Below, piece after piece: positions 10,729 to 39,754 of a DNA stretch of 64,000 nucleotides. Where the stretch lies: NCBI RefSeq assembly GCF_015831355.1, contig NZ_JADWYR010000001.1:1612001-1676000 (forward strand), in the 5' to 3' direction. The position numbers and the translations under genes were made by a program. Each line of letters starts with the position of its first letter. Position 1 is the first letter of the stretch. The notes under the pieces were generated by a model. It saw only the letters and a list, made by a program, of their open reading frames with translations. It did no database searches and had not been told where the DNA came from. The stretch is from Panacibacter microcysteis. Lineage in GTDB: Bacteria; Bacteroidota; Bacteroidia; Chitinophagales; Chitinophagaceae.

Positions 10729-10751
10729 ATAAATGTCAAAATAACACTTAT
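10729..10751 (+). promoter_or_regulatory. candidate operator, inverted repeat ATAAATGT-N7-ACACTTAT
   Basis: Half-sites at 10729-10736 and 10744-10751 form a near-perfect dyad with a 7-base spacer, ending 45 bases before the GH51 start. The same two half-sites with the same spacing occur 44 bases before araB (18815-18837). This suggests a shared regulator, possibly the Nudix-type AraR; which protein binds is inference. Confidence 0.6.
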
Positions 10752-10796
10752 CTTTAAACCTCCTTAATCTTAACTTAGGTAAAACTTACTGTTATT

Positions 10797-12341
10797 ATGA
10801 AGCATTTACGATTGCCCCTCTTACTCCTGTGTTTGTATGCTACCTCAGCAATTAATGCACAGCAGGCTACTGTTATGGTCAATGCCAGCCCAGGCAGCGC
10901 CACTACCATCAGCAAACATATTTATGGCCATTTTGCAGAGCACCTGGGCCGTTGTATATATGGTGGGTTTTATGTAGGCGATACCAGTAAAATACCCAAT
11001 ACTGCAGGTGTGCGTAACGATATTGTGGAAGCGTTGAAAAAACTGCAGATACCAAACCTGCGCTGGCCGGGTGGCTGCTTTGCCGATACATACCACTGGA
11101 AAGACGGCGTAGGCCCTAAAGACAAAAGACCTTCTATTGTAAATACCAACTGGGGCAATGTTACAGAAGATAACAGCTTCGGTACACACGACTTTCTCAA
11201 TATGTGCAAATTGCTGAATGCAGATCCTTACATTTCCGGTAACGTAGGCAGCGGTACGGCACAGGAACTTGCAGACTGGGTTCAATACACCAATTTCGAA
11301 AACAAAAGCCCTATGAGCGACTGGCGCAGACAAAACGGCCAGGACCAGCCATGGAACGTAAAATTCTGGGGTATTGGTAATGAAGCATGGGGTTGTGGTG
11401 GAAATATGACTGCAGAATATTATGCCAATGAATACCGCAAGTTTGCCACTTTCATGCCCAATTCTGCCAAAGCGCCATTGTACCGCATAGCCTCTGGCGC
11501 AAGCGGTGCAGACTACAACTGGACAGAAACACTCATGAAAAATATTCCGCACTGGATGCTTTCAGGTGTTGGTGTGCACCACTATTCGGTAATAGACTGG
11601 AACAAGAAAAGTTCGGCAACAGATTACAGCGAAGCACAATATTTCCTTACCATGAAAGAAGCATGGAAAATGGAAGAAATTGTAACAAAACACGCCGCTG
11701 TAATGGATAAATATGACCCCCAGAAAAAAGTAGCCATGATTGTAGATGAGTGGGGCGGCTGGTACGATGTAGAACCCAATACAAATCCAGGTTTTTTATA
11801 CCAACAAAATACAATGCGCGATGCAATGATTGCAGGTATAACACTCAACACCTTCAATAACCATGCAGACCGCGTACGCATGGCCAACCTGGCACAATGC
11901 GTAAATGTTTTGCAGGCCGTTATTCTTACCGATAAAGAAAAAATGATCCTTACACCTACTTACCATGTAATGGAAATGTACAAAGTGCACCAGGACGCTA
12001 CGCTGCTGCCCATACAACTGGCAACGAGCGATTACGTGGTTGGTACAGAAAAATTACCTGCCGTTACGGCTTCTGCATCAAAAGATGCGGGTGGTAAAAC
12101 ACATATTTCGCTTACCAATATCGATACAAAAAATACGCAGGTAATAACCATCAATATCGAAGGCGGGCAATATACATCAGTAACGGGCCGTATCCTCACT
12201 TCAAACAAATTACAGAACTATAATTCATTTGAAGAGCCGGATAAAATAAAGCCCGCTGCATTTAACGGCGCGTCTTTAAAAGGCAATGCTTTAACGTTAA
12301 AACTGCCACCATTCTCCGTAGTGGTACTGGAACTTAAATAA
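10797..12341 (+). CDS. GH51 alpha-L-arabinofuranosidase
   Basis: A 514-residue secreted glycoside hydrolase expected to remove terminal alpha-L-arabinofuranosyl units in the periplasm. The signal peptide ends near ATSAINAQ. The (beta/alpha)8 barrel carries HIYGHFAEHLGRCIYGG, LRWPGGCFADTYHW, the acid/base Glu196 in WGIGNEAWGCGG and the nucleophile Glu318 in VDEWGGWYDVEP, all canonical for GH51. A C-terminal beta domain ends PPFSVVVLELK. Length is normal. It is the first gene of the arabinose locus and is preceded by the candidate operator. Confidence 0.95.
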   Translation: MKHLRLPLLLLCLYATSAINAQQATVMVNASPGSATTISKHIYGHFAEHLGRCIYGGFYVGDTSKIPNTAGVRNDIVEALKKLQIPNLRWPGGCFADTYHWKDGVGPKDKRPSIVNTNWGNVTEDNSFGTHDFLNMCKLLNADPYISGNVGSGTAQELADWVQYTNFENKSPMSDWRRQNGQDQPWNVKFWGIGNEAWGCGGNMTAEYYANEYRKFATFMPNSAKAPLYRIASGASGADYNWTETLMKNIPHWMLSGVGVHHYSVIDWNKKSSATDYSEAQYFLTMKEAWKMEEIVTKHAAVMDKYDPQKKVAMIVDEWGGWYDVEPNTNPGFLYQQNTMRDAMIAGITLNTFNNHADRVRMANLAQCVNVLQAVILTDKEKMILTPTYHVMEMYKVHQDATLLPIQLATSDYVVGTEKLPAVTASASKDAGGKTHISLTNIDTKNTQVITINIEGGQYTSVTGRILTSNKLQNYNSFEEPDKIKPAAFNGASLKGNALTLKLPPFSVVVLELK

Positions 12342-12377
12342 AAAGAGCAGATTTTTGGTGCCCGGCACCAGTGCATG

Positions 12378-12408
12378 TGGCATCGCCTGTTGCGTCGCAC
12401 TCTTGTAC
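12378..12408 (-). repeat. dispersed intergenic repeat, copy 5 (GCGACGC core, GGCGATGCC flank)
   Basis: Minus-strand reading: GTACAAGAGTGCGACGCAAC then AGGCGATGCCA. This copy joins the core version usually paired with GAAGCTT to the other flank. It lies just after the first GH51 gene. Confidence 0.85.
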
Positions 12409-12537
12409 ACGCAGATCAATGATGGGCAACACGATGTGTGTTTGCAAAATGTAGTTGCGTGTACGGTGTTGTGTAACCACTGCTAAAACCAATTGTATTT
12501 ATAGAACCGGAACGCTGCAGCCGCCATAGAATGGGAA

Positions 12538-12571
12538 CGCACAAGTGAGTGACACAACAGGCGATGCCATA
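12538..12571 (+). repeat. dispersed intergenic repeat, copy 6 (GTGACAC core, GGCGATGCC flank)
   Basis: CACAAGTGAGTGACACAAC (first bases slightly changed) then AGGCGATGCCATA, upstream of the second GH51 gene. Confidence 0.8.
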
Positions 12572-12613
12572 GTAATCCATAGCTGATTAACAAATACTAA
12601 TACCTGCTTTTAT

Positions 12614-14602
12614 ATGAAAATAAAACACTGGCTTGGCGCGGTATTGCTGTGTATTGCAACGATTGCTTACCCCCAGCATACATTTACCGTAAAGGCCAAC
12701 AAACCTATAGCAGACATTGCACCAACCATGTGGGGAATTTTTTTTGAAGACATCAACCTTGGTGCAGACGGCGGCATTTACGCAGAACTGGTGAAGAACC
12801 GTTCATTTGAATTCAACAATCCCCTGATGGGCTGGAGCATAAAGATGTCTGACAAAACAGACCCGCAGGTAGCAGGTATGAACCCGCCCGTGCTTGTGGT
12901 GAACAGGAAAGAACACACCGCTAATCCAAGATATATTCATGTTACGGTTGATAATGCAGTAAAAGGAGATTTTCTCTTATCCAATGAGGGTTTCAGGGGT
13001 ATGGGCATAAAGAAAGATATACGTTATGATTTTTCTGTAATGTACCACCAGGCAACTGCTGGCGTAAAGTTGCACATAGCACTGTCAGACTCTGCGGGTA
13101 AAGAGCTGGGTAGTACAACCATCACGCCTGCAGAAACGGGTATTGGATGGCATAAAGCCACAGCAGCTTTTACCGCTAATGCAACAGTGATGAGGGGCAG
13201 GATGAATATTTGGTTTGAGGGCAACGGAGCAATAGACCTGGATATGGTTTCTTTATTTCCATCAGACACATGGAAAGGGCGGCCGGGTGGTATGCGTGCA
13301 GACATGGTACAAAAACTCGCAGATCTTAAGCCAGGTTTTATTCGTTTTCCGGGCGGCTGCATAGTAGAAGGTTACGACCTGGAGCACCGCTACCAATGGA
13401 AGAAAACTGTCGGCCCCATAGAAGAACGGCAACTGATCATTAACCGGTGGAACACAGAGTTTGCACACAGGCCGGCACCGGATTATTTCCAGACCTTTGG
13501 TTTGGGCTTTTTTGAATATTTCCAGTTGGCCGAAGATATTGGCGCCGCTCCATTACCAATTATCAACTGTGGTATGGCATGCCAGTTCAATTCCAAAGAA
13601 GTGGTGCCTATGGATGATCTGCAACCTTACATACAGGATGCGCTTGATCTTATAGAATTTGCAAATGGCGATGTGGCAAGCACCTGGGGCAAGGTTCGTG
13701 CAGCAATGGGGCACCCGGCGCCATTCAATCTTACCATGATGGGTATTGGCAACGAAAACTGGGGGCCGCAATATTTGGAAAGACTAAAGGCATTTACAAA
13801 AGCCATCAAAGAGAAATACCCTGCTATTAAACTTATCAACAGTTCGGGTTTTGCACCGGATGGCGCATTATTCAATTACCTGGATATAGAACTGCGAAAC
13901 ATGCAGGCAGACTTTATAGATGAACATTATTACAGGTCACCCGAATGGTTTTATGCCAATGTAAAACGCTACGATACTTTTCCGCGGAATAACACAAAAA
14001 TCTTTGCCGGTGAATATGCATCTCATGTAGACGGTACAAAAGGCGATCAGAAAAACTGTTGGCTCTCAGCTATCTCTGAAGCTGCCTTTATGACCGGCCT
14101 GGAGCGTAATGCAGCAGTGGTGAATATGGCCTCTTATGCGCCGTTGTTTGCGCATGTGGATGGCTGGCAATGGACACCAGATCTTATTTGGGTAAATAAC
14201 CTCGAATCTTATGGCACACCAGATTATTATGTGCAACAAATGTATACACTGAATAAAGGCAATAAAGTAGTGCCCGTTACACTTAACAATGAAGTTGTGG
14301 CCGGGCAGGACAGCCTGTATGCAACCGCCGCAATAGACACAGTAAAACGGGAAGTGATTATTAAAGTAGTAAACGCTTCCGCAAAGCCGCAGGAAAATAC
14401 AATAATATTGGAAGGTGCCGGCAAAACAGCAGCGCAGGCAACAGTCATCAGCATGCAAAGCAATGATCTGCTTGCGGTAAACTCTTTTACATCACCCACC
14501 AATATATCTCCCAAAACCTCAGTAATGAATGTTAAGGGAAAAAAGATCAGTGTAAAGGCTGCGCCTTATTCATTCACCATTTTTAGGATCGGTATGCAAT
14601 AA
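12614..14602 (+). CDS. GH51-type alpha-L-arabinofuranosidase, long form
   Basis: A 662-residue secreted arabinofuranosidase. A signal peptide (to about residue 20) is followed by the conserved MWGIFFEDINLGADGGIYAE, then an inserted carbohydrate-binding-like beta-sandwich at about 90-215, then the catalytic barrel (FIRFPGGCIVEGYDL) with the acid/base Glu381 in GIGNENWG and probable nucleophile Glu467 in FAGEYASH. The C-terminal beta domain is of the family type. It differs strongly from the 514-residue GH51 upstream, so the two probably act on different linkages. Only 4 bases separate it from the GH27 gene, so they share an operon. Confidence 0.93.
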   Translation: MKIKHWLGAVLLCIATIAYPQHTFTVKANKPIADIAPTMWGIFFEDINLGADGGIYAELVKNRSFEFNNPLMGWSIKMSDKTDPQVAGMNPPVLVVNRKEHTANPRYIHVTVDNAVKGDFLLSNEGFRGMGIKKDIRYDFSVMYHQATAGVKLHIALSDSAGKELGSTTITPAETGIGWHKATAAFTANATVMRGRMNIWFEGNGAIDLDMVSLFPSDTWKGRPGGMRADMVQKLADLKPGFIRFPGGCIVEGYDLEHRYQWKKTVGPIEERQLIINRWNTEFAHRPAPDYFQTFGLGFFEYFQLAEDIGAAPLPIINCGMACQFNSKEVVPMDDLQPYIQDALDLIEFANGDVASTWGKVRAAMGHPAPFNLTMMGIGNENWGPQYLERLKAFTKAIKEKYPAIKLINSSGFAPDGALFNYLDIELRNMQADFIDEHYYRSPEWFYANVKRYDTFPRNNTKIFAGEYASHVDGTKGDQKNCWLSAISEAAFMTGLERNAAVVNMASYAPLFAHVDGWQWTPDLIWVNNLESYGTPDYYVQQMYTLNKGNKVVPVTLNNEVVAGQDSLYATAAIDTVKREVIIKVVNASAKPQENTIILEGAGKTAAQATVISMQSNDLLAVNSFTSPTNISPKTSVMNVKGKKISVKAAPYSFTIFRIGMQ

Positions 14603-14606
14603 CAGT

Positions 14607-15956
14607 ATGAAGAAATTACTAATATCTGCAGCATTATTTTATTCAACAGTTATACAGGCACAGGTTGCTGGTAAACCACCTATGGGTTGGAACAGTTATA
14701 ACTGTTACGGGTCTGCTGTTCATGAAGATGAAGTAAAAGCCAATGCTGATTATGTTGCAGCCAACCTTAAGCAGTTTGGCTGGAACTACGTGGTGGTGGA
14801 TTTCTTATGGTCGTACGACAACCCGGCCGGCAGTAAAATCGGCAACCCATTTCAGCAACAGTTGTATGACGGTTCTTACGTGCCCTGGCTTGCGATGGAT
14901 GATTATGGCAGGCTATTGCCTACACCCAATAAATTTCCTTCTGCATTTGGCGGCAAAGGCTTTAAACCACTGGGCGACTACGTACATTCGCTCGGCTTGC
15001 AATTTGGCATACATGTAATGCGCGGCATACCCCGCCAGGCTGTATGGGCAAAATCGAAGGTATTGGGTGCAAACGGTATTACCGCAGACATGATAGCAGA
15101 TACATCATCTACCTGCCCCTGGATGAACCATATGTACGGGTTAAATATGCGTAAACCTGGTGCACAGGAATACCTCAATGCTATACTTAACCTGTATGCA
15201 TCGTGGGGGGTAGATTTTATTAAAGTAGATGATATTGCACGGCCATACAGCGCCGCAGAAATCGAAGGCTATAAAAAGGCGATTGCGCAATGCGGCAGGC
15301 CAATGGTACTTAGTATTTCTCCGGGCGAAACACCTGTGGCACAGGCAACCCATGTGCAGGCGAACGCCAATATGTGGCGCATGGCAGACGACTTTTGGGA
15401 TAGCTGGGACCAAATGCTGAAAATGTTCGACTATGCCCGGGCTTGGGAAGGAACAGGCGGAGCAGGGCACTGGCCGGATTGCGATATGATACAGATTGGT
15501 AAACTCTCCAAACGCGGGCCGGTTGGGCCCGAACGTTATAGCAGGTTTACAGAAGATGAACTTTACACACACATGAGTTTCTGGTGTATATTCCGTTCTC
15601 CGCTGATGTTGGGCGGCAACTTACCCGAAAACAGGAATATAGAACGAACACTCTTTACAAATGATGAAATCATTGCTGTAAACCAGCAGGGTGAAAACCC
15701 GAAACAGCTTTATAAGAAGGATGGAAACATGGCCTGGTATTCGCAGGTACAGGGCAGTAAAGATTTGTATGTGGCCTTATTCAATATTGCAGACAGTGCC
15801 CATGCAGTTACTTTAGATTTTGCACAGCTAGGTCTGAAAGGTAAGGTTGCCGTAAGAGATCTGTGGAAAAAGCAGGATGCAGGCGTATTCAAAAAATCCT
15901 TCACGCAGCGAATAAATGCACACGGGGCAATGGTTATTAAATTGCACGCTGAGTAG
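14607..15956 (+). CDS. GH27 family glycoside hydrolase (alpha-galactosidase / beta-L-arabinopyranosidase type)
   Basis: A 449-residue secreted enzyme with signal peptide MKKLLISAALFYSTVIQAQ. GH27 motifs: KPPMGWNSYNCYG at the mature N-terminus, WNYVVVDFLW, the nucleophile Asp208 in DFIKVDDIARP, and the acid/base Asp at 261/262 in WRMADDFWDSW. A C-terminal beta domain ends GAMVIKLHAE. Known GH27 enzymes hydrolyse alpha-galactosides or beta-L-arabinopyranosides, which have the same ring configuration apart from C6. The arabinan context favours an arabinopyranosidase or galactan side-chain role, but sequence alone does not decide. Confidence 0.88.
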   Translation: MKKLLISAALFYSTVIQAQVAGKPPMGWNSYNCYGSAVHEDEVKANADYVAANLKQFGWNYVVVDFLWSYDNPAGSKIGNPFQQQLYDGSYVPWLAMDDYGRLLPTPNKFPSAFGGKGFKPLGDYVHSLGLQFGIHVMRGIPRQAVWAKSKVLGANGITADMIADTSSTCPWMNHMYGLNMRKPGAQEYLNAILNLYASWGVDFIKVDDIARPYSAAEIEGYKKAIAQCGRPMVLSISPGETPVAQATHVQANANMWRMADDFWDSWDQMLKMFDYARAWEGTGGAGHWPDCDMIQIGKLSKRGPVGPERYSRFTEDELYTHMSFWCIFRSPLMLGGNLPENRNIERTLFTNDEIIAVNQQGENPKQLYKKDGNMAWYSQVQGSKDLYVALFNIADSAHAVTLDFAQLGLKGKVAVRDLWKKQDAGVFKKSFTQRINAHGAMVIKLHAE

Positions 15957-16037
15957 GCGGGCAACAACAATTCATCTAAACGTCGGGTTATAACGGGCAA
16001 TTTTTTTACTGTACTTTTAAAACTTCAAAAGGCACAT

Positions 16038-17162
16038 ATGAAATTCGGCACATTTATTTTTTCAACTGCAATGGCAGCAATCATGTCTGGTTGTGGTCAG
16101 CAAACAAAAAGTGAAGGGGAAACTACCATGAAAGCAGGCATTTCCAAAGAAAGCTGGGGCAATGTGGATAATGACAGTGTTTACCTCTATACGCTTACCA
16201 ATGCAAAAGGGACAGTCGTAAAGATTACCAACTACGGTGGTATTGTAACTTCGTTTGTTACGGAAGATAAAGCCGGCAATAAATCAAACATTGTATTAGG
16301 CTTCGATAGTCTTGCAGGCTACCTGGAGAAACCACCATATTTTGGTGCACTTATAGGCCGGTATGGTAACCGGATAGGCGATGCAACATTTACGCTTGAT
16401 GGCAAAGAGTATAAGCTTGCTGCCAACAATGGTAAAAATGCGCTGCATGGCGGTTTAAAAGGTTTTGATAAAGTTGTGTGGACACCAACTGTAATGAACG
16501 ATACCATTCCTACATTAATGCTTAGCTATATGAGTAAAGATGGCGAAGAAGGCTACCCCGGAAACCTGAAAGTGATGGTTCATTATACGCTTACCAATGA
16601 TGATGAACTGAAAATTGAATATAGCGCAACAACAGATAAGGCCACGCCTGTAAATCTTACCAACCACAGCTACTTTAATCTTACCGGCGATGTAAACAAT
16701 ACTATTCTCGGGCATACATTAATGATTGCTGCAGACCATTACACACCTGTTGATACAACATTAATACCCACAGGAGAAATAAAAGCAGTAAAAGGCACAC
16801 CATTCGACTTTACGGCCGCCAAACCAATAGGCAAGGACATCGATTCAGTGCCGGGCGGTTACGATCATAATTTTGTACTAAACAATAAAGATGGCTCGCT
16901 GCAAAAAGTGGCTGTACTGGCAGATTCAGTAAGCGGCAGAACGCTGGAGGTATATACAACAGAACCCGGTTTGCAGTTTTATACCGGCAATTTTTTAGAT
17001 GGTAAGTTTACCGTAAACGGTACACCGGTAAAATACAGAACAGCGCTGTGCCTGGAAACACAGCATTTTCCCGATTCGCCAAATAAACCGGAGTTCCCTT
17101 CTACCATTTTACAGCCTGGTACAACGTACCAGTCAACCACCATTTACAAAGTGGTAAAATAG
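16038..17162 (+). CDS. galM: aldose 1-epimerase (mutarotase), lipoprotein
   Basis: A 374-residue aldose 1-epimerase that interconverts alpha and beta anomers of free sugars. The N-terminus is a lipoprotein signal with lipobox MSGC at Cys19, so it probably sits in the periplasm or outer membrane rather than the cytosol. Family motifs: KITNYGGIVTSF, IGRYGNRIGDATF, NALHGG, the catalytic His in NLTNHSYFNL, and the catalytic Glu in CLETQHFPDSPN. It follows the glycoside hydrolases by about 80 bases and would equilibrate released arabinose before uptake. Confidence 0.93.
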   Translation: MKFGTFIFSTAMAAIMSGCGQQTKSEGETTMKAGISKESWGNVDNDSVYLYTLTNAKGTVVKITNYGGIVTSFVTEDKAGNKSNIVLGFDSLAGYLEKPPYFGALIGRYGNRIGDATFTLDGKEYKLAANNGKNALHGGLKGFDKVVWTPTVMNDTIPTLMLSYMSKDGEEGYPGNLKVMVHYTLTNDDELKIEYSATTDKATPVNLTNHSYFNLTGDVNNTILGHTLMIAADHYTPVDTTLIPTGEIKAVKGTPFDFTAAKPIGKDIDSVPGGYDHNFVLNNKDGSLQKVAVLADSVSGRTLEVYTTEPGLQFYTGNFLDGKFTVNGTPVKYRTALCLETQHFPDSPNKPEFPSTILQPGTTYQSTTIYKVVK

Positions 17163-17279
17163 CAACTTTTGGTTCTTTCCGGCTGCAGCGCTATGCCGCG
17201 TAAAAAAGCTTCTTTACATTTGGGGCCTGCATGTATAAGCCGGCCGCCACGCAGTATCGTTGATGATTATTGCAAAGGA

Positions 17280-17332
17280 GTACAAGAGTGCGACGCAACA
17301 ACAGTCGGTTAAGGAACAGAAAGCCGGGCTCA
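17280..17332 (+). repeat. dispersed intergenic repeat, copy 7 (long form)
   Basis: Core GTACAAGAGTGCGACGCAAC at 17280-17299 and a tail AAGCCGGGCTCATAAC near 17320-17335. The tail abuts the transaldolase leader. Confidence 0.85.
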
Positions 17333-17358
17333 TAACAACAATAAAACATAATAATATC

Positions 17359-18012
17359 ATGAAGTTTTTTATTGACACAGCAAACCTCGATCATATAAGA
17401 GAGGCACATGCATTAGGAATATTGGATGGTGTTACCACCAACCCGTCATTAATGGCAAAAGAAGGTATCAAAGGCACAGAAGCAATCAACAACCATTATA
17501 AGACCATCTGCGAAATTGTTGACGGAGACATTAGCGCAGAAGTACTGGGCACAGATTTTAACACCATTGTGGAAGAAGGTAAAGTGCTTGCTGCATTGCA
17601 CCCCAACATCGTGGTTAAAGTGCCTATGATTAAAGATGGTGTAAAAGCCATTAAATGGTTTACAGACAATGGCATTAAAACAAACTGCACACTCGTGTTC
17701 TCTGCAGGCCAGGCCATACTGGCTGCAAAAGCAGGCGCAACATACGTTTCGCCGTTTATTGGCCGTATAGACGACAGCGGTTGGGATGGTATGCAACTCA
17801 TCAGCCAGATTGCCAATATTTACACGCTGCAGGGTTTCGAAACACAGATACTCGCCGCTTCTATACGCAATGCGAACCACATTATACAATGCGCAGAGGC
17901 AGGTGCAGATGTCATCACATCACCACTTGAGCCCATACTCGGTTTATTAAAACATCCGTTAACAGACTTAGGTCTTGAAAAGTTTTTGGAAGACGCTAAA
18001 AAGATGGGCTAG
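17359..18012 (+). CDS. transaldolase, small TalC/fructose-6-phosphate aldolase type
   Basis: A 217-residue TIM-barrel aldolase of the short transaldolase subfamily. It opens MKFFIDTANLDHIREAHALG and has DGVTTNPSLMAKEG, PNIVVKVPMIKDG with the Schiff-base Lys, NCTLVFSAGQAILAAKAGA and SPFIGRIDD. Start is ATG at 17359, because the upstream in-frame stretch is repeat sequence. In the arabinose locus it would process pentose phosphate pathway intermediates downstream of AraD. Whether it is a transaldolase or fructose-6-phosphate aldolase cannot be settled by reading alone; transaldolase is the usual activity of chromosomal copies of this length. Confidence 0.9.
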   Translation: MKFFIDTANLDHIREAHALGILDGVTTNPSLMAKEGIKGTEAINNHYKTICEIVDGDISAEVLGTDFNTIVEEGKVLAALHPNIVVKVPMIKDGVKAIKWFTDNGIKTNCTLVFSAGQAILAAKAGATYVSPFIGRIDDSGWDGMQLISQIANIYTLQGFETQILAASIRNANHIIQCAEAGADVITSPLEPILGLLKHPLTDLGLEKFLEDAKKMG

Positions 18013-18041
18013 TTTTTTACATGAGACAGGCTTTTGAATAA

Positions 18042-18073
18042 GCATGAAGCATCGTTGCGTCGCACACTTGTAC
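18042..18073 (-). repeat. dispersed intergenic repeat, copy 8 (GCGACGC core)
   Basis: Minus-strand core GTACAAGTGTGCGACGCAAC (18054-18073), then GATGCTTCATGC. It overlaps the terminator stem described separately. Confidence 0.85.
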
Positions 18074-18106
18074 TGCATTACTGTGCGCAGCAACGATGCC
18101 TTTTTT
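18049..18106 (+). terminator. intrinsic terminator formed from repeat copy 8
   Basis: GCATCGTTGC (18049-18058) pairs with GCAACGATGC (18090-18099), extended by an inner GCACA/TGTGC stem, and is followed by CTTTTTT. It lies just after the transaldolase stop. The left arm is a piece of the dispersed repeat. Confidence 0.7.
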
Positions 18107-18148
18107 ATAAATCCGTACATGCACTAACATAATCGATCTCTTTTACTC

Positions 18149-18811
18149 ATGAGTATAAAAGCATTTCTGTTTGATCTTAACGGAACAATGGTAGACGATA
18201 TGGAATACCATGCGCGTGCATGGAGCGATATTTTAAACAATGATCTGCAGGCTGGCCTTAGCTATGCACAGGTCAAAGAGCAGATGTATGGCAAAAATGA
18301 AGAGCTGCTGGTACGCATTTTTGGAAAAGATCATTTTCTGCCTTCGCGTATGCAGGAACTGTCTGTAGAAAAAGAACGGCGCTACCAGGCTGCATTTTTG
18401 CCTGAACTGAAACTCATTGCAGGCCTAAACGATTTTCTTGCGTCTGCAAAACAGGAAAATATTAAAATGGCAATAGGTTCTGCAGCCATTACTTTCAATA
18501 TAGACTTTGTGCTCGATAATTTGCATATACGCGATTATTTTAAAGCCATTGTAAGTGCAGATGATGTGGCCATAAGCAAGCCACACCCGGAAACCTTTTT
18601 GAAGTGCGCCGCACAGCTAAATGTTTTGCCGCATGAGTGTATTGTGTTTGAAGATGCCCCAAAAGGTGTGGAAGCTGCACAAAATGCGGGTATGAAAACC
18701 GTGGTATTAACAACCATGCATGGCAAAGAAGAGTTTTCGGCATACAGCAATATCATTGCGTTTATCAGCGATTATACCGCATCCCAACCGCAGGATTTCC
18801 TGGTTGATTAA
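18149..18811 (+). CDS. HAD-superfamily phosphatase / beta-phosphoglucomutase-like
   Basis: A 220-residue HAD hydrolase of subfamily IA with a helical cap. Motif I is FLFDLNGTMVDDMEYH, with Asn in place of the second catalytic Asp (DLNGT instead of DxDGT). Motif II is MAIGSAA, motif III includes Lys in ISKPHPETF, and motif IV is VFEDAPKGVEAAQNAGM. The Asn replacement is found in some HADs and may alter or weaken phosphoryl transfer; this needs testing. It sits between the transaldolase and araB, which suggests a sugar-phosphate substrate such as a pentose phosphate, but that is inferred from context. Confidence 0.85.
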   Translation: MSIKAFLFDLNGTMVDDMEYHARAWSDILNNDLQAGLSYAQVKEQMYGKNEELLVRIFGKDHFLPSRMQELSVEKERRYQAAFLPELKLIAGLNDFLASAKQENIKMAIGSAAITFNIDFVLDNLHIRDYFKAIVSADDVAISKPHPETFLKCAAQLNVLPHECIVFEDAPKGVEAAQNAGMKTVVLTTMHGKEEFSAYSNIIAFISDYTASQPQDFLVD

Positions 18812-18814
18812 AAA

Positions 18815-18837
18815 ATAAATGTAGTATTTACACTTAT
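18815..18837 (+). promoter_or_regulatory. candidate operator, inverted repeat ATAAATGT-N7-ACACTTAT
   Basis: Half-sites at 18815-18822 and 18830-18837 are identical in sequence and spacing to those before the first GH51 gene (10729-10751). It ends 44 bases before the araB start. Confidence 0.6.
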
Positions 18838-18881
18838 TCAAAAAAGCTTTATCTTGCTGCAATAAAGCTTGCTGTTTCATT

Positions 18882-20537
18882 ATGTCATCATCATACGTTA
18901 TAGGAGTTGATTACGGTTCAGATTCTGTCCGTTCAATTATTGTAGATGCTTCCAACGGAACCGAGATCGCTTCCGCCGTTTTTTATTATCCCAGGTGGAA
19001 GAAAGGCCTGTATTGCAATCCTGCAGAAAATCAGTTCAGGCAGCACCCGCTCGATTACATAGAAGGGCTTGAAACAACGATCAAAGATTGTTTGGCCAAA
19101 GCCGGCAAAAACATTGCCGCAAACGTAACGGCAATATCGGTAGATACAACAGGCTCCACACCGGTGGCAGTTGATAAAACAGGCACTCCCCTGGCGCTTA
19201 CACCAGGTTTTGAAGAAAACCCGCATGCCATGTTTGTATTGTGGAAAGATCATACTGCAACAGGTGAGGCAGCAGAGATCAATGCACATGCCACCAGATA
19301 CCCCATTAATTATTTGCAGTATGTAGGTGGTATTTATTCATCAGAATGGTTCTGGGCCAAATTGCTGAGGATATTGCGCACAGATGAAAATGTACGTGCT
19401 GCCTGCTGCTCATGGGTAGAGCATTGCGACTGGATTCCGTTTCTCCTGACAGGTGGCACAGATATAAAACAAATGAAACGCGGCGTATGTTCTGCGGGGC
19501 ACAAGGCTTTGTGGGCAGCTGAATTCAATGGTTTGCCGCCCGCAACATTCTTTAAGGAACTAGATCCGTTGTTAGATGGCTTTACAGAGAAATTATTTAC
19601 TGAAACATATACGGCCGACCAGGCCGCTGGAAAGATTGCACCTGAATGGGCATCCCGCCTGGGCCTGCCTGCAGATGTTGTAATTGGCGTAGGCGCCTTT
19701 GATGCGCACATGGGTGCTGTTGGCGGGCAAATTGAACCGTACCACCTCAGTAAGGTTATGGGTACTTCCACATGCGATATGCTGGTAGCACCGGTGGAAG
19801 AAGTAGAAGGCACACTTGTAAAAGGTATTTGCGGCCAGGTGCCCGGTTCTGTAATACCGGGCATGATGGGTATGGAAGCCGGTCAGTCTGCTTTTGGAGA
19901 TACCTATGCATGGTTTAAACAAATCCTCCGGTGGCCTTTGCAGTTGTTGTCAGCGTCTGCTGTAATAGATGAAGCAACGGCGGCAGCCCTGCAGGAAGAA
20001 CTGGGCAATAAGATTATCAAAGAACTTTCTGAGGCGGCGGCAAAACTGCCGTTAAAAGAAACAGATGAGATTGCGGTCGACTGGCTCAATGGCCGGCGCA
20101 CGCCTGATGCAAACCAGGTTGTAAAAGCCGCGATCAGCGGGTTAAATCTTGGTACAGATGCGCCGCGTATTTTTAAGGCCCTCGTAGAAGCAACATGCTT
20201 CGGTGCCAAGGCAATCGTTGATCGCTTTGTGGAAGAAGGTGTGCCTGTAAAAGGGCTTATTGGTTTGGGTGGCGTTGCAAGAAAAGCGCCCTACATTATG
20301 CAGGTAATGGCAGATGTAATGAACATGCCCATCCGTATTCACCGGTCTGAGCAAACCTGTGCGGCAGGTGCAGCAATGTTTGCAGCAACGGCAGCCGGTT
20401 TATACAACAAGGTAGAAGATGCAATGGCGGCAATGGGTCAGGGGTTCGATATGGAGTATCAACCTAACCCCGTTACAGCTCCGATATACGCAAAGCGTTA
20501 TGAGCGGTATAAAGCATTGGGTAAGTGCATCAGTTAG
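18882..20537 (+). CDS. araB: ribulokinase
   Basis: A 551-residue FGGY-family kinase that phosphorylates L-ribulose to L-ribulose 5-phosphate in the cytosol. It opens with IGVDYGSDSVRSIIVDAS, the family phosphate-binding loop, and has SVDTTGSTPVAVD, GVGAFDAHMGAVGG, VMGTSTCDMLV, MGMEAGQSAFGDTYAWF and a C-terminal GLIGLGGVARKAPYIMQVMA, all typical of bacterial AraB. Length matches the family. It is the first gene of the araB-araD-GH127-araA group and is preceded by the candidate operator. Identity is secure. Confidence 0.96.
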   Translation: MSSSYVIGVDYGSDSVRSIIVDASNGTEIASAVFYYPRWKKGLYCNPAENQFRQHPLDYIEGLETTIKDCLAKAGKNIAANVTAISVDTTGSTPVAVDKTGTPLALTPGFEENPHAMFVLWKDHTATGEAAEINAHATRYPINYLQYVGGIYSSEWFWAKLLRILRTDENVRAACCSWVEHCDWIPFLLTGGTDIKQMKRGVCSAGHKALWAAEFNGLPPATFFKELDPLLDGFTEKLFTETYTADQAAGKIAPEWASRLGLPADVVIGVGAFDAHMGAVGGQIEPYHLSKVMGTSTCDMLVAPVEEVEGTLVKGICGQVPGSVIPGMMGMEAGQSAFGDTYAWFKQILRWPLQLLSASAVIDEATAAALQEELGNKIIKELSEAAAKLPLKETDEIAVDWLNGRRTPDANQVVKAAISGLNLGTDAPRIFKALVEATCFGAKAIVDRFVEEGVPVKGLIGLGGVARKAPYIMQVMADVMNMPIRIHRSEQTCAAGAAMFAATAAGLYNKVEDAMAAMGQGFDMEYQPNPVTAPIYAKRYERYKALGKCIS

Positions 20538-20675: not shown

Positions 20676-21371
20676 ATGAAGTACGAACACATACAACAGG
20701 AAGCATACGAAGCAAACATGCAGTTACCAAAACTCGGGCTGGTACTTTTTACCTTTGGTAATGTAAGTGCTGCAGACAAAAACTTAGGCGTGTTTGCTAT
20801 AAAACCAAGCGGCGTACCGTACGCAGATCTTTCACCGGATAAAATGGTGATCGTCGATTTCGACGGCAATATTGCAGAAGGTTCTTTACGGCCTTCCTCC
20901 GATACAAAAACACACGCAGTTTTATATAAACACTGGAATGGTATCGGCGGTATTGTGCATACGCATTCCACTTATGCCACCGCATGGGCGCAGGCACAAA
21001 GAGATATTCCTATATTCGGTACAACACATGCAGATCATAACACGACCGATATTCCCTGCGCACCACCAATGAATGATGAAATGATCAAAGGAAATTATGA
21101 ATATGAAACCGGTTTCCAGATCATTAATTGTTTCAATGAGCGTAGGCTTGATTATAAAGAAACCGAAATGATGCTGGTAGGCAATCACGCCCCTTTTACC
21201 TGGGGTAAGAATGCCGCAAAAGCAGTGTATAACAGTGCAGTGCTGGAGCAGATAGCTCAAATGGCCTTGTTCACAGAACAGATCAATAACAACGCACCAC
21301 GGCTGAAAGATGCATTGATCAAAAAACATTTTGAACGCAAGCACGGGCCAGACAGTTATTACGGGCAATAA
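20676..21371 (+). CDS. araD: L-ribulose-5-phosphate 4-epimerase
   Basis: A 231-residue class II aldolase-fold enzyme converting L-ribulose 5-phosphate to D-xylulose 5-phosphate. It shows FTFGNVSAADKNLGVFAIKP, SGVPYADLSPDKMV, the zinc ligands in GIVHTHSTYAT, the THADH motif, and the third zinc His in VGNHAPFTWG. The length is that of the AraD/SgaE family. It lies 138 bases after araB and completes the isomerase-kinase-epimerase route together with AraA. Confidence 0.95.
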   Translation: MKYEHIQQEAYEANMQLPKLGLVLFTFGNVSAADKNLGVFAIKPSGVPYADLSPDKMVIVDFDGNIAEGSLRPSSDTKTHAVLYKHWNGIGGIVHTHSTYATAWAQAQRDIPIFGTTHADHNTTDIPCAPPMNDEMIKGNYEYETGFQIINCFNERRLDYKETEMMLVGNHAPFTWGKNAAKAVYNSAVLEQIAQMALFTEQINNNAPRLKDALIKKHFERKHGPDSYYGQ

Positions 21372-21435: not shown

Positions 21436-21514
21436 TGTTGTACCAATTGCAGCTTTTGATACTGAAGATGCTAACTCGAAGAATACATAGTTGACCATAA
21501 AAATCCTGACGATT

Positions 21515-23557
21515 ATGAAGCGGATTATTTTTTCTTTCTCCTTGCTAAGCGCAGTCCTGGTTGCCACAGGTCAGCACAAAGATTATCCCATACAGGCAGT
21601 GCCTTTTACCAGTGTAAAGCTTACAGATAATTTTTGGATGCCACGCATCAAAATGAACCACACCGTTACCATTCCGGCTTCGTTTGAACGTTGTGAAAGC
21701 ACTGGTCGTGTAAAGAATTTTGTAATGGCAGCCAACAAAAGCGGTAAGTTTTGTACAGTGTATCCTTTCGACGATACAGATATTTACAAAACCATTGAAG
21801 GCGCATCTTACTCACTCAGTTTATTTCCCGATGCCAAATTGGATAAATACCTCGATTCACTCATTACAATCGTAGGTAAAGCACAGGAGCCGGATGGCTA
21901 CCTGTATACCGCAAGAACCATAGACCCGGTAAATGTCGGGCCGTGGCTGGGTAAGGAAAGATGGGAGAAAGAAAGAGAGCTAAGTCACGAATTATACAAC
22001 GCTGGCCATTTGTACGAAGCTGCAGCCGCGCACTATATTGCTACCGGCAAAAAAAACCTGCTTGATATTGCATTGAAAAATGCAGACCTCGTTTGTAGCG
22101 TTTTTGGTCCCGGCAAAAGGCATGTGGCACCCGGCCATGAGATTGTAGAAATGGGCCTGGTAAAGTTGTACCGCATAACGGGAAAGCCCGAATACCTTGC
22201 CACAGCAAAAGATTTTGTAGAATACCGTGGCCACTACAACGGTTACGATTCTACCAGCAAAGATCAATGGAAGAATGGCAAATACTGGCAGGATGATGTA
22301 CCGGTTGCACAACAGCGGGAAGCTGTTGGCCACGCAGTACGGGCCGGCTACCTGTATTCAGGTGTGGCTGATATTGCTGCCCTTACGGGTGATAAAGCGT
22401 TGCTTACAGCAATAGACAGTATCTGGGCAAATGTGGTAAGCAAAAAAATGTACGTGCAGGGCGGCACCGGTGCCATAGGCGATGGTGAGCGTTACGGAGA
22501 AAACTATGAATTACCCAACGAAACAGCTTACAACGAAACATGTGCCGCCATATCAAACATTTTCTGGAATGAGCGTATGTTCCAGTTGCATGGCGATGCA
22601 AAATATATTGACGTACTGGAGAAGATATTGTACAACGGTTTTATTTCGGGTATTGGCCTCGATGGCAAATCGTTTTTTTATACGAATGCCATGCAGATCA
22701 AAAATACATTCGATCACCGGGATATGGAATCAGCCCGTTCCGGCTGGTTTGTGTGCTCCTGCTGCCCTACCAACGACTTAAGGTTACTGCCATCTATACC
22801 TGGTTATGTATATGCACAGAAAGATGATCAGTTGTATGTAAACCTCTTTATTAACGGCAATGCAACGATGAAAATAATGGGTAAAGATGTTGCTGTGGAA
22901 CAGCAGAACAACTACCCCTGGAGCGGAGATCTGAAATTCATTGTAAATCCTAAAAAACCTGCTGCATTTGCTATGCTGGTACGTATACCAGGCTGGGCAA
23001 AAGGTGTGGCTATACCTTCTGACCTCTACGCTTTTAAAAACAACATGCGTACACAGGTGCAGGTACCCATTACAATAAACGGGCAGCCGGTAGAATACGA
23101 AATGCAAAACGGGTATGCGGTCATCAAAAGAACATGGAAAAAAGACGATGTGGTAGAAGTAAAACTGCCAATGGATGTAGAACGTGTAGTGGCAAACAAT
23201 AAAGTAAAAGATGACATTAATAAAGTTGCTTTGCAGCGTGGCCCTATTATTTATTGTGCGGAGTGGGCAGACAATAATGGGAAGGCAACAAATATCATTA
23301 TACCCGATGCGGCAGCTTTTACCGCATCATTTAAAGCGGATATGTTGAATGGCATTGAAATATTGCAGGCACAGGTGCCGGTTGTAGAAGTGAAAAACAA
23401 TCAAACCATTCAAACCGAACAAAAAACATTAACGGCTATTCCTTATTATGCATGGGCAAACAGGGGTAAAGGCGAAATGATGATCTGGTTTCCGGAAAAA
23501 GTTACGGCCGTAGACCTGTTGGCAGGTGAGCCCCATATACCAGAACCCGACAAATAA
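21515..23557 (+). CDS. GH127 (DUF1680) beta-L-arabinofuranosidase
   Basis: A 680-residue secreted enzyme of the DUF1680/GH127 family, which cleaves beta-L-arabinofuranosides. Signal peptide to about residue 19. The family's metal/catalytic Cys-Glu set is visible: Glu341 and Cys343 in YNETCAAISN and the pair Cys416-Cys417 in CSCCPTN, matching the arrangement known from bifidobacterial enzymes of this family. The N-terminal barrel and C-terminal beta-sandwich are both present. Start is ATG at 21515; the earlier TTG at 21491 is unlikely. It lies between araD and araA, so enzyme and catabolism genes are coexpressed. Confidence 0.92.
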   Translation: MKRIIFSFSLLSAVLVATGQHKDYPIQAVPFTSVKLTDNFWMPRIKMNHTVTIPASFERCESTGRVKNFVMAANKSGKFCTVYPFDDTDIYKTIEGASYSLSLFPDAKLDKYLDSLITIVGKAQEPDGYLYTARTIDPVNVGPWLGKERWEKERELSHELYNAGHLYEAAAAHYIATGKKNLLDIALKNADLVCSVFGPGKRHVAPGHEIVEMGLVKLYRITGKPEYLATAKDFVEYRGHYNGYDSTSKDQWKNGKYWQDDVPVAQQREAVGHAVRAGYLYSGVADIAALTGDKALLTAIDSIWANVVSKKMYVQGGTGAIGDGERYGENYELPNETAYNETCAAISNIFWNERMFQLHGDAKYIDVLEKILYNGFISGIGLDGKSFFYTNAMQIKNTFDHRDMESARSGWFVCSCCPTNDLRLLPSIPGYVYAQKDDQLYVNLFINGNATMKIMGKDVAVEQQNNYPWSGDLKFIVNPKKPAAFAMLVRIPGWAKGVAIPSDLYAFKNNMRTQVQVPITINGQPVEYEMQNGYAVIKRTWKKDDVVEVKLPMDVERVVANNKVKDDINKVALQRGPIIYCAEWADNNGKATNIIIPDAAAFTASFKADMLNGIEILQAQVPVVEVKNNQTIQTEQKTLTAIPYYAWANRGKGEMMIWFPEKVTAVDLLAGEPHIPEPDK

Positions 23558-23636: not shown

Positions 23637-25172
23637 ATGAAGCAATTCAATTATGCTTCCAATGATGGAAGCAAGCCACTTGGAAAACTGGAAGTTTGGT
23701 TTTTTACAGGAAGCCAGCATTTGTATGGCGAAGAAACATTGAAACAGGTTGCTGCCCACTCGCAGGAAATTGCGGAAGCTTTGAATGCTGCTGCAGTTAT
23801 ACCGGTTACAATCGTGTATAAACCCACTGTAAAATCCACGGAGGAAATATATGCCATTTGCCAGGAGGCAAACACCGCCGCCAACTGCATCGGAATGATT
23901 GCATGGATGCATACTTTCTCGCCTGCAAAAATGTGGATCAACGGATTGAAGATTTTGCAGAAACCTATGCTGCACCTGCATACACAATACAACAGGGATA
24001 TTCCATGGAATGATATTGACATGGATTTCATGAACCTGAACCAGAGTGCTCATGGTGACAGGGAATTTGGTTTTATGGTTAGCCGTATGCGCATAAGGAG
24101 AAAAGTAGTGGTGGGGCATTGGCAGAGTACTGCAGTACATGAGCAGATAGAAGTTTGGAGCCGTGCAGCAGCAGGGTGGTACGACTGGCAGGGTGCCAAA
24201 TTTGTGCGTTTTGGAGACAATATGCGCTATGTGGCAGTTACCGATGGCGATAAAGTAGAAGCAGAGCTGAAGTTTGGATTTGCGGTAAATACGCATGGTA
24301 TAGGAGACCTTGTAAAAGTTATTAACGCAGTAGAGGAGAAAGACATTGATGCATTGTGCGAGGTTTATGAAACAGCATATCTAGTACAGGATAGTTTAAA
24401 AAAATCAGGGGCACAGCATGGATCTTTAAGAGAAGCCGCAAAGATTGAAATAGGTCTGCGTACTTTTCTTGAGGCAGGTGGCTACAAAGGCTTTACTGAT
24501 TCTTTTGAAGACCTGCACGGCATGATACAACTTCCCGGTTTGCCTGTACAAAGGCTGATGAACGAGGGTTACGGTTTTGCGGGGGAAGGCGACTGGAAAA
24601 CGCCGGCGCTGGTGAGAGCCATGAAAGTGATGGCCGCAGGCCTGAAAGGGGGTAACTCTTTTATGGAAGACTACACTTATCATTTTGAGCCAGGCAATGA
24701 AATGGTACTGGGGTCTCATATGCTGGAAATATGCGAAAGCATAGCAAAAGATAAACCCAAATGCGAAATACATGCACTGGGTATTGGTGGAAAAGCTGAT
24801 CCTGTGAGACTTGTATTTGATGTTGCAGGCGGCCAGGCACTCAATGCATCGCTGGTGGATATGGGCAACCGCTTCAGGTTGATTGTAAATACGGTGGAAG
24901 CAGCAGCGCCACAACATGCATTGCCAAAGCTGCCGGTAGCCAGGGTTTTATGGAAACCACACCCAAACATGGCAGACGGTTGTGCTGCATGGATCTATGC
25001 CGGCGGCGCACACCACACGGCTTACAGCCAGAACCTTACCGGTGCACACCTGGAAGATTTTGCTGACATGGCTGGCATTGAGTATGTGATCATAGACGAG
25101 GCAACAACACTGCGTGCATTGAAAAATGAATTAAGGTGGAGCGATGTTTATTACCAGCTTAACAGGCAGTAA
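23637..25172 (+). CDS. araA: L-arabinose isomerase
   Basis: A 511-residue cytosolic metal-dependent isomerase converting L-arabinose to L-ribulose. It shows [19 protein letters not shown] at the start, [27 protein letters not shown], and [20 protein letters not shown], with C-terminal [12 protein letters not shown]. The length is typical. It is the last enzyme gene of the ara group; the SSS transporter follows by about 210 bases, with a repeat copy in between. Identity is secure. Confidence 0.96.
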
Positions 25173-25382: not shown

Positions 25383-27095
25383 ATGGAGAAACTTTTCTTT
25401 GAAGACAAGCTGATATTTATTATCTACTTTCTCATTGTGGCTGGCTACGGCTACTACATTTACCGCAAAAAGAAAAAAGCTGTTACCGATACGCACGACT
25501 TCTTTCTTGCAGAGGGCTCACTTACCTGGTGGGCTATCGGTGCATCACTGATTGCATCGAACATATCTGCAGAGCAGTTTATTGGCATGAGCGGTAATGG
25601 CTACAGCATTGGTATTGCGGTGGCTGCCTACGAATGGATTGCTGCTGTAGCGCTGATCATTGTTGCAGTTTGGTTTATACCGGTGTACCTGAAGAACAAG
25701 ATCTTTACCATGCCGCAGTTTCTCGAGAACCGGTATAATAAAACGGTAAGTCTTATTATGGCTATCTTCTGGTTGTTCCTGTACATTTTTGTAAACCTTA
25801 CGTCTATACTGTACCTGGGTGCGGTTGCTATCAATAACCTTGTTGGCGGCAGCCCTGACCAGTTTCATATGATCGTTATTGCATTGAGTATTTTTGCCAT
25901 ACTCATTACACTGGGTGGTATGAAGGTGATTGGTTTTACCGATGTGATACAGGTAACAGTACTGATCATCGGCGGTTTGGCAACAACCTATATTGCTCTT
26001 ACACTTGTAAGTGAAAAATTTGGTTTGGGCAAAGACATTGTTGCTGGTTTTAATAAACTGCTGGAAGATGCACCAGACCACTTTCACATGATCTTTAAAA
26101 AGCCTGATGCAAACTCTACGCAGCAGGAGATCAATAATTATTTAACCATACCGGGTTTATTGAGTTATGTGGCCGGTATCTGGATCGTTAACCTTAACTA
26201 CTGGGGCTGTAACCAATACATTACACAACGTGCGCTGGGTGCAGACCTCAACACAGCGCGTAAGGGTATATTGTTTGCAGGCTTTATAAAATTATTGATG
26301 CCTGTAATAGTAATGCTGCCTGGTATTGCTGCCTATGTATTGTACAAAAACGGGTCTTTACAACAGGAAATGATTACCGGCAGCAAAGATGGCGCTGTAA
26401 TAGCAGACAATGCCTACTCAGCAATCCTGGGTTATCTGCCGCATGGTCTTATCGGTTTATCACTCGCTGCACTTACAGCTGCTATCGTAGCTTCCCTGGC
26501 AGGTAAAGCCAACAGTATCTCAACTATTTACACGCTGGATATTTATAAAAAGTACATCAACAAAGAAGCGTCTGAAAAGAAGATGGTATGGACTGGCCGC
26601 ATCACCATTCTTGCAGCTATGGTTATCTCCATCATTTTTACGTGGGATGATATTTTGGGTATTGGTGGTGAAGGTGGTTTTACTTTTATACAGAAATATA
26701 CCGGCTTTATAAGCCCGGGCGTATTCGCCATGTTCATACTCGGTATGTTTTGGAAAAGAACCACCGGCGCTGCCGCTGTGGCGGGTGTATTAACAGGTTT
26801 TATACTCAGCGTTGTATTCAACGTATTTGCACCATCATGGTTTGGCCCTGAAACGATCTTATACACTGCCTATAAGAACAATGCAGGTGTATATGAAATT
26901 CCTTTCCACATTTGTATGGGGCTGGCGTTTGGTTTTACCATGCTGGTAATGATCGTAATGAGCATAGCAGGTCCTAAGATCAATCCAAAATCATTTGAGA
27001 TAGACAAAGGCATGTTCAAAGTATCGCCGGGCACACTGGCAATGATCGTAATAACACTGCTTATTATCTCCATGTTATATGTGCGGTTCTGGTAA
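25383..27095 (+). CDS. sodium/sugar symporter (SSS family), probable L-arabinose uptake
   Basis: A 570-residue inner membrane protein of the sodium:solute symporter family with about 14 hydrophobic segments. Typical SSS parts are the early AIGASLIASNISAEQFIGMSG, the GGMKVIGFTDVIQ stretch and a C-terminal helix set. The pattern resembles the sugar (galactose/glucose-like) subgroup. It directly follows araA and ends in a strong terminator, so it is likely the arabinose importer of the locus; substrate is inferred from context. Confidence 0.9.
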   Translation: MEKLFFEDKLIFIIYFLIVAGYGYYIYRKKKKAVTDTHDFFLAEGSLTWWAIGASLIASNISAEQFIGMSGNGYSIGIAVAAYEWIAAVALIIVAVWFIPVYLKNKIFTMPQFLENRYNKTVSLIMAIFWLFLYIFVNLTSILYLGAVAINNLVGGSPDQFHMIVIALSIFAILITLGGMKVIGFTDVIQVTVLIIGGLATTYIALTLVSEKFGLGKDIVAGFNKLLEDAPDHFHMIFKKPDANSTQQEINNYLTIPGLLSYVAGIWIVNLNYWGCNQYITQRALGADLNTARKGILFAGFIKLLMPVIVMLPGIAAYVLYKNGSLQQEMITGSKDGAVIADNAYSAILGYLPHGLIGLSLAALTAAIVASLAGKANSISTIYTLDIYKKYINKEASEKKMVWTGRITILAAMVISIIFTWDDILGIGGEGGFTFIQKYTGFISPGVFAMFILGMFWKRTTGAAAVAGVLTGFILSVVFNVFAPSWFGPETILYTAYKNNAGVYEIPFHICMGLAFGFTMLVMIVMSIAGPKINPKSFEIDKGMFKVSPGTLAMIVITLLIISMLYVRFW

Positions 27096-27105
27096 AAAAA
27101 TATGA

Positions 27106-27138
27106 AAGAAGCTGGCTGCGGCCGGCTTCTTCTTTTTT
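27106..27138 (+). terminator. intrinsic terminator after SSS transporter
   Basis: An 11-bp stem (AAGAAGCTGGC / GCCGGCTTCTT, one wobble) with loop TGCG followed by CTTTTTT. It begins 11 bases past the transporter stop. Confidence 0.88.
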
Positions 27139-27226: not shown

Positions 27227-27919
27227 ATGTCAAGCATTATACAATATAAGCACCACGACCGTTTTCTGCTGGCAGTAGATTGTATCATTTTTGGTTTTGA
27301 TGGCGAACGTTTAAAGGCACTTTTTATCAAACGTGGTTTCGAGCCCGAAATTGGAAAATGGTCTTTGATGGGTGGTTTTGTAAACCGGCAGGAAAGCGTG
27401 GAAGCCGCGGCTGCACGTGTGTTACAACAACTAACCGGTCTTGACAATATTTATATGGAACAGATCGGTTGCTTTGGCGATGTTGACAGAGACCCCGGTG
27501 GCCGTGTAATATCCGTAGCTTATTTTGCCCTCATCAACATTGCTGATTACACAGAAAACATGATGCAGGAGCACAATGCCAAATGGTTCACCATCGATAA
27601 AATTCCACAACTGGTATTCGACCATAAAAAAATGGTATTGCTTGCAAAAGAAAGGCTGCAGCAAAAAGTGGCTAACCACCCCATTGGGTTTGAATTGCTG
27701 CCCGAAAAATTTACACTCCGCCAGCTACAAAATTTGTACGAGGCCATTTACGGTAATGAGCTCGACAAAAGAAACTTCACAAGAAAGATTCTTTCGCTCG
27801 ATATACTTCACAAGCTAAACGAGAAAGAAAAAGCCTCTTCCCGCAAAGGCTCTTACTATTTTGTCTTCGATGAAAAGCGGTATAAAAAGCTCGAAACAGA
27901 AGGCGTCAAGTTCATTTAG
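27227..27919 (+). CDS. araR: Nudix-family transcriptional regulator (NrtR/AraR type)
   Basis: A 230-residue protein with an N-terminal Nudix domain (about 10-150) and a C-terminal winged-helix domain (about 150-230, FTLRQLQNLYEAIYGNELDK, RRKILSLDILHKL-like). The Nudix box region GGFVNRQESVEAAAARVLQQ (49-68) lacks the catalytic pattern: RE becomes RV and the EE pair becomes QQ, so hydrolase activity is unlikely and ligand sensing is likely. A Nudix-related AraR controlling arabinose genes has been described in Bacteroides. Position right after the arabinose transporter supports the name; the effector and binding site here are inferred. ATG at 27227 chosen. Confidence 0.85.
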   Translation: MSSIIQYKHHDRFLLAVDCIIFGFDGERLKALFIKRGFEPEIGKWSLMGGFVNRQESVEAAAARVLQQLTGLDNIYMEQIGCFGDVDRDPGGRVISVAYFALINIADYTENMMQEHNAKWFTIDKIPQLVFDHKKMVLLAKERLQQKVANHPIGFELLPEKFTLRQLQNLYEAIYGNELDKRNFTRKILSLDILHKLNEKEKASSRKGSYYFVFDEKRYKKLETEGVKFI

Positions 27920-39669: not shown

Positions 39670-39700
39670 GTACAAGTGAGTGACACAACAGGCGATGCCA
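39670..39700 (+). repeat. dispersed intergenic repeat, copy 16 (GTGACAC core, GGCGATGCC flank)
   Basis: GTACAAGTGAGTGACACAAC followed by AGGCGATGCCA, 55 bases before the GH-A lipoprotein start. Confidence 0.85.
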
Positions 39701-39754
39701 CCTGCACCAGTGCTGGTAACAATAAATATTACAATCTTAAAACAACCACCGGTT

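Follow-up and report, generated by a model that had tools for sequence, protein, structure and literature searches.

A stretch of 64,000 nucleotides (nt) of the Panacibacter microcysteis genome (contig NZ_JADWYR010000001.1, positions 1,612,001 to 1,676,000; hereafter the window) contains two runs of arabinose-related genes, each preceded by an inverted repeat that we examined as a putative operator of the regulator gene at 27227-27919. The repeat upstream of the first run, operator 1, is ATAAATGT-CAAAATA-ACACTTAT (10729-10751, plus strand, exact match) and ends 45 nt before the ATG of a GH51 gene at 10797. Operator 2, upstream of araB, is ATAAATGT-AGTATTT-ACACTTAT (18815-18837, plus strand, exact match); it starts 4 nt downstream of a HAD-type gene's stop codon and ends 44 nt before the araB ATG at 18882. 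The first-pass annotation of this DNA had described two repeats with identical half-sites, a 7-base spacing and differing spacers at these distances from the start codons, and every part of that description was exact. The left half contains ATGT instead of the GTGT of a perfect palindrome, and either operator is therefore imperfect by one base pair. The features of the region are as follows.

10797..12341, plus strand: GH51 alpha-L-arabinofuranosidase, first gene after operator 1 (Pfam PF06964, Alpha-L-AF_C; PF22848, ASD1_dom)
12614..14602, plus strand: second GH51-type arabinofuranosidase (Pfam PF22848, PF06964)
14607..15956, plus strand: alpha-galactosidase (Pfam Melibiase_2), which we take to be a GH27 enzyme
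16038..17162, plus strand: aldose 1-epimerase (Pfam PF01263)
17260..18012, plus strand: transaldolase / fructose-6-phosphate aldolase (Pfam PF00923)
18149..18811, plus strand: HAD-type phosphatase (Pfam PF13419)
18850..18857, plus strand: putative -7 promoter element TATCTTGC, 12 nt downstream of operator 2
18882..20537, plus strand: araB, FGGY ribulokinase, first gene after operator 2 (Pfam FGGY_N, FGGY_C)
20676..21371, plus strand: araD, class II aldolase-type epimerase (Pfam PF00596; name suggested by its neighbours)
21491..23557, plus strand: GH127 beta-L-arabinofuranosidase, within the catabolic run (Pfam PF07944)
23637..25172, plus strand: araA, L-arabinose isomerase (Pfam PF02610, PF11762, PF24856)
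25383..27095, plus strand: sodium:solute symporter (Pfam PF00474)
27106..27131, plus strand: terminator-like hairpin in the symporter/araR gap, an 11-pair stem followed by CTTTTTT
27227..27919, plus strand: araR, Nudix and winged-helix repressor (Pfam NUDIX, NrtR_WHD, AraR_C)
28181-32326: hybrid two-component regulator (HTCS) with an HTH_AraC domain
41508-42395: AraC-type protein with an HTH_AraC domain

Elsewhere in the window, no further ATAAATGT-N7-ACACTTAT match was detected at two or fewer mismatches. At three or fewer, the window yielded six matches, four of which were the two operators counted on each strand, as compared with a mean of 1.33 and a maximum of 5 in 100 shuffles of the window. 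The degenerate pattern ATAARTGT-N7-ACAYTTAT occurred four times in the 5.21-Mb genome, twice inside the window, and its reversed control did not occur.

The protein encoded at 27227-27919 contains NUDIX (residues 15-137), NrtR_WHD (154-214) and AraR_C (152-229) domains, and it matched the AraR structures in PDB (5bs6, 5dd4, 5ddg and 5deq; E 1.4e-77 for 5bs6). SoNrtR, the ADP-ribose-responsive NrtR, shares this domain architecture (E 1.8e-26 to 3gz5) but has a different ligand. PDB entries 3gz5 and 3gz6 are presumably this SoNrtR. Over 215 residues, the protein shared 52% identity with BtAraR (BT0354) of Bacteroides thetaiotaomicron, and the ten positions reported to contact L-arabinose in BtAraR, including Arg34, Arg86, His131 and a hydrophobic pocket, were identical in all ten cases (PMC4666351). 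The recognition helix DKRN (D178 K179 R180 N181) was also kept. The Nudix signature is impaired in the stretch GGFVNRQESVEAAAARVLQQLTGL, where V, Q and L replace three of the four Glu residues; loss of two or three Glu is a described trait of AraR (PMC4666351).

BtAraR recognizes a 21-bp semipalindrome before arabinose genes, with the operator GTGT-N7-ACAC established by gel shift and crystallography; the GTGT motif is defined by the protein-DNA contacts of a crystal whose duplex is GTGT-N7-ACAC, and the BT0365 gel-shift oligonucleotide contains AAAGTGT-AAAAAAG-ACACTTAT (PMC4666351). Binding is abolished by L-arabinose (PMC4666351). The system described here resembles that of BtAraR in the NrtR-family Nudix and winged-helix protein, the 7-bp spacing, the arabinose contacts, the exact right half-site, and GH51 and ara genes as targets, and differs from it in the left half-site (ATGT against GTGT). 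DNA motifs of the NrtR family are highly variable between bacterial groups (PMC4666351). XylR (BT0791), which represents a xylose-linked NrtR branch (PMC4666351, PMC3878776), belongs to the same protein family and is 33% identical to BtAraR (PMC4666351).

Conservation was examined in 98 genomes of the family, of which 81 contained AraR relatives at E 1e-10 or better and 49 contained araB matches at E 1e-100 or better. The exact pattern was found at 23 sites in 14 genomes, compared with one site for the reversed control. AraR was matched at 50% identity or higher in 47 genomes, in two of them (G023 and G059) through partial hits. All 14 genomes with the exact pattern were among these 47, and none of the other 51 had it (Fisher 1e-5, which is optimistic, as is the Fisher value given below, because the rows are related species). 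The 500 nt upstream of araB were scanned in 53 of the 55 listed regions. Sites with the 7-base spacer were present in 4, 10, 22 and 31 of the 53 regions at up to 0, 1, 2 and 3 mismatches, respectively, whereas spacers of 3-6 and 8-12 gave 0, 0, 0-1 and 0-6, and the reversed control gave 0, 0, 0 and 1. A core-intact site at three or fewer mismatches lay within 500 nt before araB in 21 of 43 AraR-positive genomes and in none of the four genomes that have araB but lack a close AraR; the additional araB region of G030 also had a core-intact site, with three mismatches. G058 and G063 also carry operator 1, including the CTTTAA that flanks it, upstream of their GH51 gene.

A wider set was assembled by aligning AraR across the phylum and retaining the best 80 of 595 loci (1.475 Mb), which include Chryseolinea, Flavihumibacter, Chitinophaga, Neolewinella, Flavobacterium, Maribacter, Spirosoma and Mucilaginibacter; one locus is titled Beijerinckiaceae, and a few genomes supply two loci. 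In these 80 loci, the N7 pattern gave 10, 38 and 50 sites at 0, 1 and 2 mismatches (98 in total), and 54 loci had at least one of them. None of the other spacers from 3 to 12 gave an exact site; each had 0-1 sites with one mismatch and 1-6 with two mismatches (1-6 in total), and the reversed control gave 0, 0 and 2. All 48 sites at one or fewer mismatches were located outside open reading frames (ORFs; ATG start, 120 amino acids (aa) or more), which cover 89% of this DNA.

These results bear on the explanation that the repeats arose by chance or belong to an unrelated structure, for example a terminator hairpin. Such an explanation draws on an exact site in G058 that lies between convergent genes and on the genome-wide count of the degenerate pattern at two or fewer mismatches, which is just twice that of the reversed control (35 sites versus 17), so that chance contributes much to the loose pattern and loose matches taken by themselves count for little. 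However, conservation was specific to the 7-base spacer, both upstream of araB in other genera and in the surroundings of AraR genes, and the sites before GH51 and GH95 genes were kept while their flanks diverged. Chance and hairpin were both rejected by the spacer-shifted and reversed controls, and we give this explanation practically no probability.

The first-pass annotation had named the AraC and HTCS proteins as alternative readers of the repeats. Both genes lie inside the window and encode HTH_AraC domains, and three B. thetaiotaomicron loci are under dual HTCS and AraR control (PMC4666351), so that binding of the neighbouring HTCS or AraC-type protein, with activation of both runs, has to be considered. 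Among the best 80 of 595 loci, however, 45 of the 54 site-bearing ones had no HTCS or AraC relative nearby (tblastn, E 1e-5), and the share of loci with sites was 9 of 14 where such a relative was present and 45 of 66 where it was absent. Moreover, the site matches the BtAraR operator. We therefore consider activation by either protein very improbable.

Five NrtR_WHD genes are present in the genome, and one of the four paralogues of the 27227 gene (C1:232614, 1822381, 2359714 and 2776375) might be the main reader of the sites, or a co-reader with AraR. In support of this, a divergent paralogue with an RRTT recognition helix is encoded about 4 kb from a pair of tandem sites that precedes a SusCD operon. 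G058, however, retains the tandem sites although its orthologue of that paralogue gene is located about 190 kb away. Where AraR has DKRN, the paralogues carry DRRN or RRTT; Arg34 and Phe36 are gone in all four and Tyr5 in three of the four. Judging from these residues, the likeness to an L-arabinose-sensing AraR looks limited to the 27227 protein among the five, and a paralogue as reader is very unlikely.

The present analysis established where the sites lie, that they are conserved at a fixed spacing, that they accompany AraR genes, and that the protein retains the ligand contacts and the recognition helix of BtAraR. Taken together, these findings make it highly probable that both inverted repeats are operators of the NrtR-family repressor AraR encoded at 27227-27919. 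This agrees with the first-pass annotation, which had judged the combination very unlikely by chance, had read it as an operator common to the release of arabinosides and the catabolism of arabinose, and had named the Nudix AraR as the best candidate; the half-site and spacing of BtAraR, and the motif following AraR genes, support the shared operator. Two of the outcomes that it had named as refuting did not occur: the proposed genome search gave few exact hits, and a good share of the relatives retained the site. It made no mention of the BtAraR system. Its AraC and HTCS alternatives are disfavoured.

Several observations weigh against the assignment to AraR. When only genomes of at least 4 Mb were compared, the association between the exact pattern and AraR was 12/40 versus 0/16 (Fisher p 0.012). 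Of the 43 AraR-positive genomes, 22 lacked a core-intact site at three or fewer mismatches within 500 nt upstream of araB, which in some of them may lie within a longer operon, and 26 of the 80 AraR loci lacked a site at two or fewer mismatches. Several exact sites in other genomes adjoin genes without a clear arabinose role. In the protein, K184, K204 and R205 of BtAraR are replaced by R, R and K, although these three were described as absolutely conserved DNA contacts among AraR orthologues of the 2015 set (PMC4666351). The changes are conservative and also common among the aligned family orthologues, and they do not disprove the assignment because the statement describes the 2015 set and not a requirement. 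The van der Waals contacts S163, R183, A207 and A208 differ too, and the left half-site carries A where K179 contacts G.

Further differences from the BtAraR system (PMC4666351) concern the arrangement of genes and sites. A single operator precedes araB here (three or fewer mismatches), whereas a tandem pair precedes the ara operon in the BtAraR system; tandem operators before the ara operon are a trait of those species and not of the AraR family. The gene order is araB-araD-GH127-araA-symporter-araR, as compared with araMPRDAB. Unlike in the BtAraR system, no site at three or fewer mismatches was found in the 500 nt before araR of the window, and 5 of 30 araR upstream regions had a site at two or fewer mismatches. 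By analogy with the arabinose genes described in PMC4666351, the epimerase at 16038..17162 is probably an arabinose mutarotase in the role of AraM. The symporter at 25383..27095 is probably the arabinose importer, in the role of AraP. The hairpin at 27106-27131 argues weakly against araR being part of the araB operon; it was listed first among 19 terminator-like sites in the region and is only suggestive, because shuffles yielded as many (19.5 on average).

A simple sigma-70 scan gave 34 sites as compared with a shuffle mean of 38, and in view of this lack of excess the Bacteroidota -7 consensus was used. Bacteroidota promoters have TTTG at -33 and TAnnTTTG at -7, with a TAnnTTGY variant (PMC7366714, PMC9723704). 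The candidate box at 18850-18857 is placed such that operator 2 would cover the region upstream of -7, where bound AraR would hinder polymerase, and a TAnnTT-type box occurs at a similar position in the araB upstream regions of relatives. Among the -7-like boxes at 18850-18857 and before araB of relatives, several read TAnnTTGY and not TAnnTTTG; TAnnTTGY resembles the SM5 motif, which has been linked to a probable alternative sigma factor (PMC9723704).

The arrangement was different in a second group of relatives. Among the core-intact araB sites, the spacer contained TAnnTTG in 11 of 20 and, before any selection, ended in TTG in 12 of 20. The promoter reading of this group draws on 12 sequences chosen by pattern (spacer ending in TTG, half-sites GTGT and ACAC), so that only the TA (11/12) and an upstream T-run are features independent of the selection. 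In these 12 sequences, a conserved TTTT, which differs from the TTTG of the -33 consensus, ends 21 nt before the TAnnTTG box, an arrangement that resembles the -33/-7 promoter of Bacteroidota, and in 10 of the 12 the operator lies 30 nt or less from the matched araB start. In at least two of them, a TAnnTTGY box follows the operator as well, which makes the promoter assignment in this group not unique. Judged by sequence, the operator spacer may contain the -7 promoter box in some relatives.

By analogy with BtAraR, we propose that in the absence of arabinose the two winged helices of an AraR dimer would sit on the two (R)TGT half-sites, which lie 7 bp apart, and the dimer would block RNA polymerase at both promoters. 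L-arabinose entering the cell would bind the Nudix domain and cause AraR to let go, whereupon the GH51 run (arabinofuranosidases and epimerase) and the araB-araD-GH127-araA-symporter run would be transcribed together.

An exact site is also present at C2:81903 of this genome, upstream of a GH95 gene that is followed by an esterase gene and two fucosidase-family genes. The same site before GH95 relatives was exact in G063 and had one mismatch in G058 and G070, giving 4 of 30 genomes examined, this genome included; other spacers gave no site at one or fewer mismatches and 0-2 at two or fewer. Tandem AraR-like sites, 25 bp apart centre to centre, lie at G000:C1:1826838-1826885 (L023:10838-10885) before the SusC/SusD operon mentioned above, and the pair before SusC was kept in G058, that is, in two of six genomes with a match (eight candidates scored per genome). 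The GH95-esterase operon and the tandem-site SusCD operon, which sit elsewhere in the genome beyond the window, are probable further targets of AraR; GH95 is not among the target families given in the section of PMC4666351 that lists them. The Thr/His rule for GH95 enzymes was called undecided by its own authors (PMC4491172). We dropped it as proof of L-galactosidase activity, since Thr was present in all 30 relatives and the rule does not discriminate among them.

AraR regulons of this kind are known from gut Bacteroides, and the finding is in this respect mostly ordinary; what it adds is a wide distribution over the phylum, GH95 as a probable target and a promoter whose position shifts. AraR was described in 17 Bacteroides and 15 Prevotella species (PMC4666351), the present host is outside that set, and a search of the open literature returned no report of AraR operators beyond it. 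We tentatively combine the three additions into a joint reading whose chances we place slightly below even, in which AraR is a phylum-wide arabinose switch, its operator has shifted relative to the promoter, and the GH95-esterase operon belongs to the regulon. In one set of relatives, the spacer TAnnTTG would be the -7 box itself, and the repressor dimer would straddle the element read by sigma; in the lineage of the window, the operator would lie upstream of the -7 box. The GH95 enzyme is tentatively predicted to be an alpha-L-galactosidase, and if the joint reading holds, arabinose would open enzymes that uncap complex arabinoxylan side chains. The pair of repeats leads to a testable regulon consisting of the GH51 run, the ara run and probably the GH95-esterase operon and one SusCD operon. 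Since AraR and its operator are indicated far beyond the Bacteroides and Prevotella set, the motif could be used to annotate arabinose regulons in environmental Bacteroidota.

The neighbours of exact sites were annotated for part of the sites, with G006, G055 and G064:C70 left out. Exact sites in relatives adjoin GH43 (G039), GH3 (G002), GH97 (G023) and symporter (G078) genes, as well as GH98 and acetylesterase genes (G085). Others are near PfkB-, ROK- and LacI-type genes in G064 and G023, and an esterase gene also occurs beside such sites in relatives. In P. microcysteis, a perfectly symmetric site, ATAAGTGT-N7-ACACTTAT, is located at G000:C3:10971-10993, with an M4 peptidase gene on one side and genes for proteins sorted by the type IX secretion system (T9SS) on the other, where a tie to arabinose is not evident. 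In the window, a 599-aa ORF without any Pfam match (39680-41479) is flanked by SusCD genes on one side and by the AraC-type gene on the other. A second araB-like kinase gene, which has no AraR site at three or fewer mismatches in the 500 nt upstream, is located at G000:C4:11303-12931 in this genome and is 65% identical to araB.

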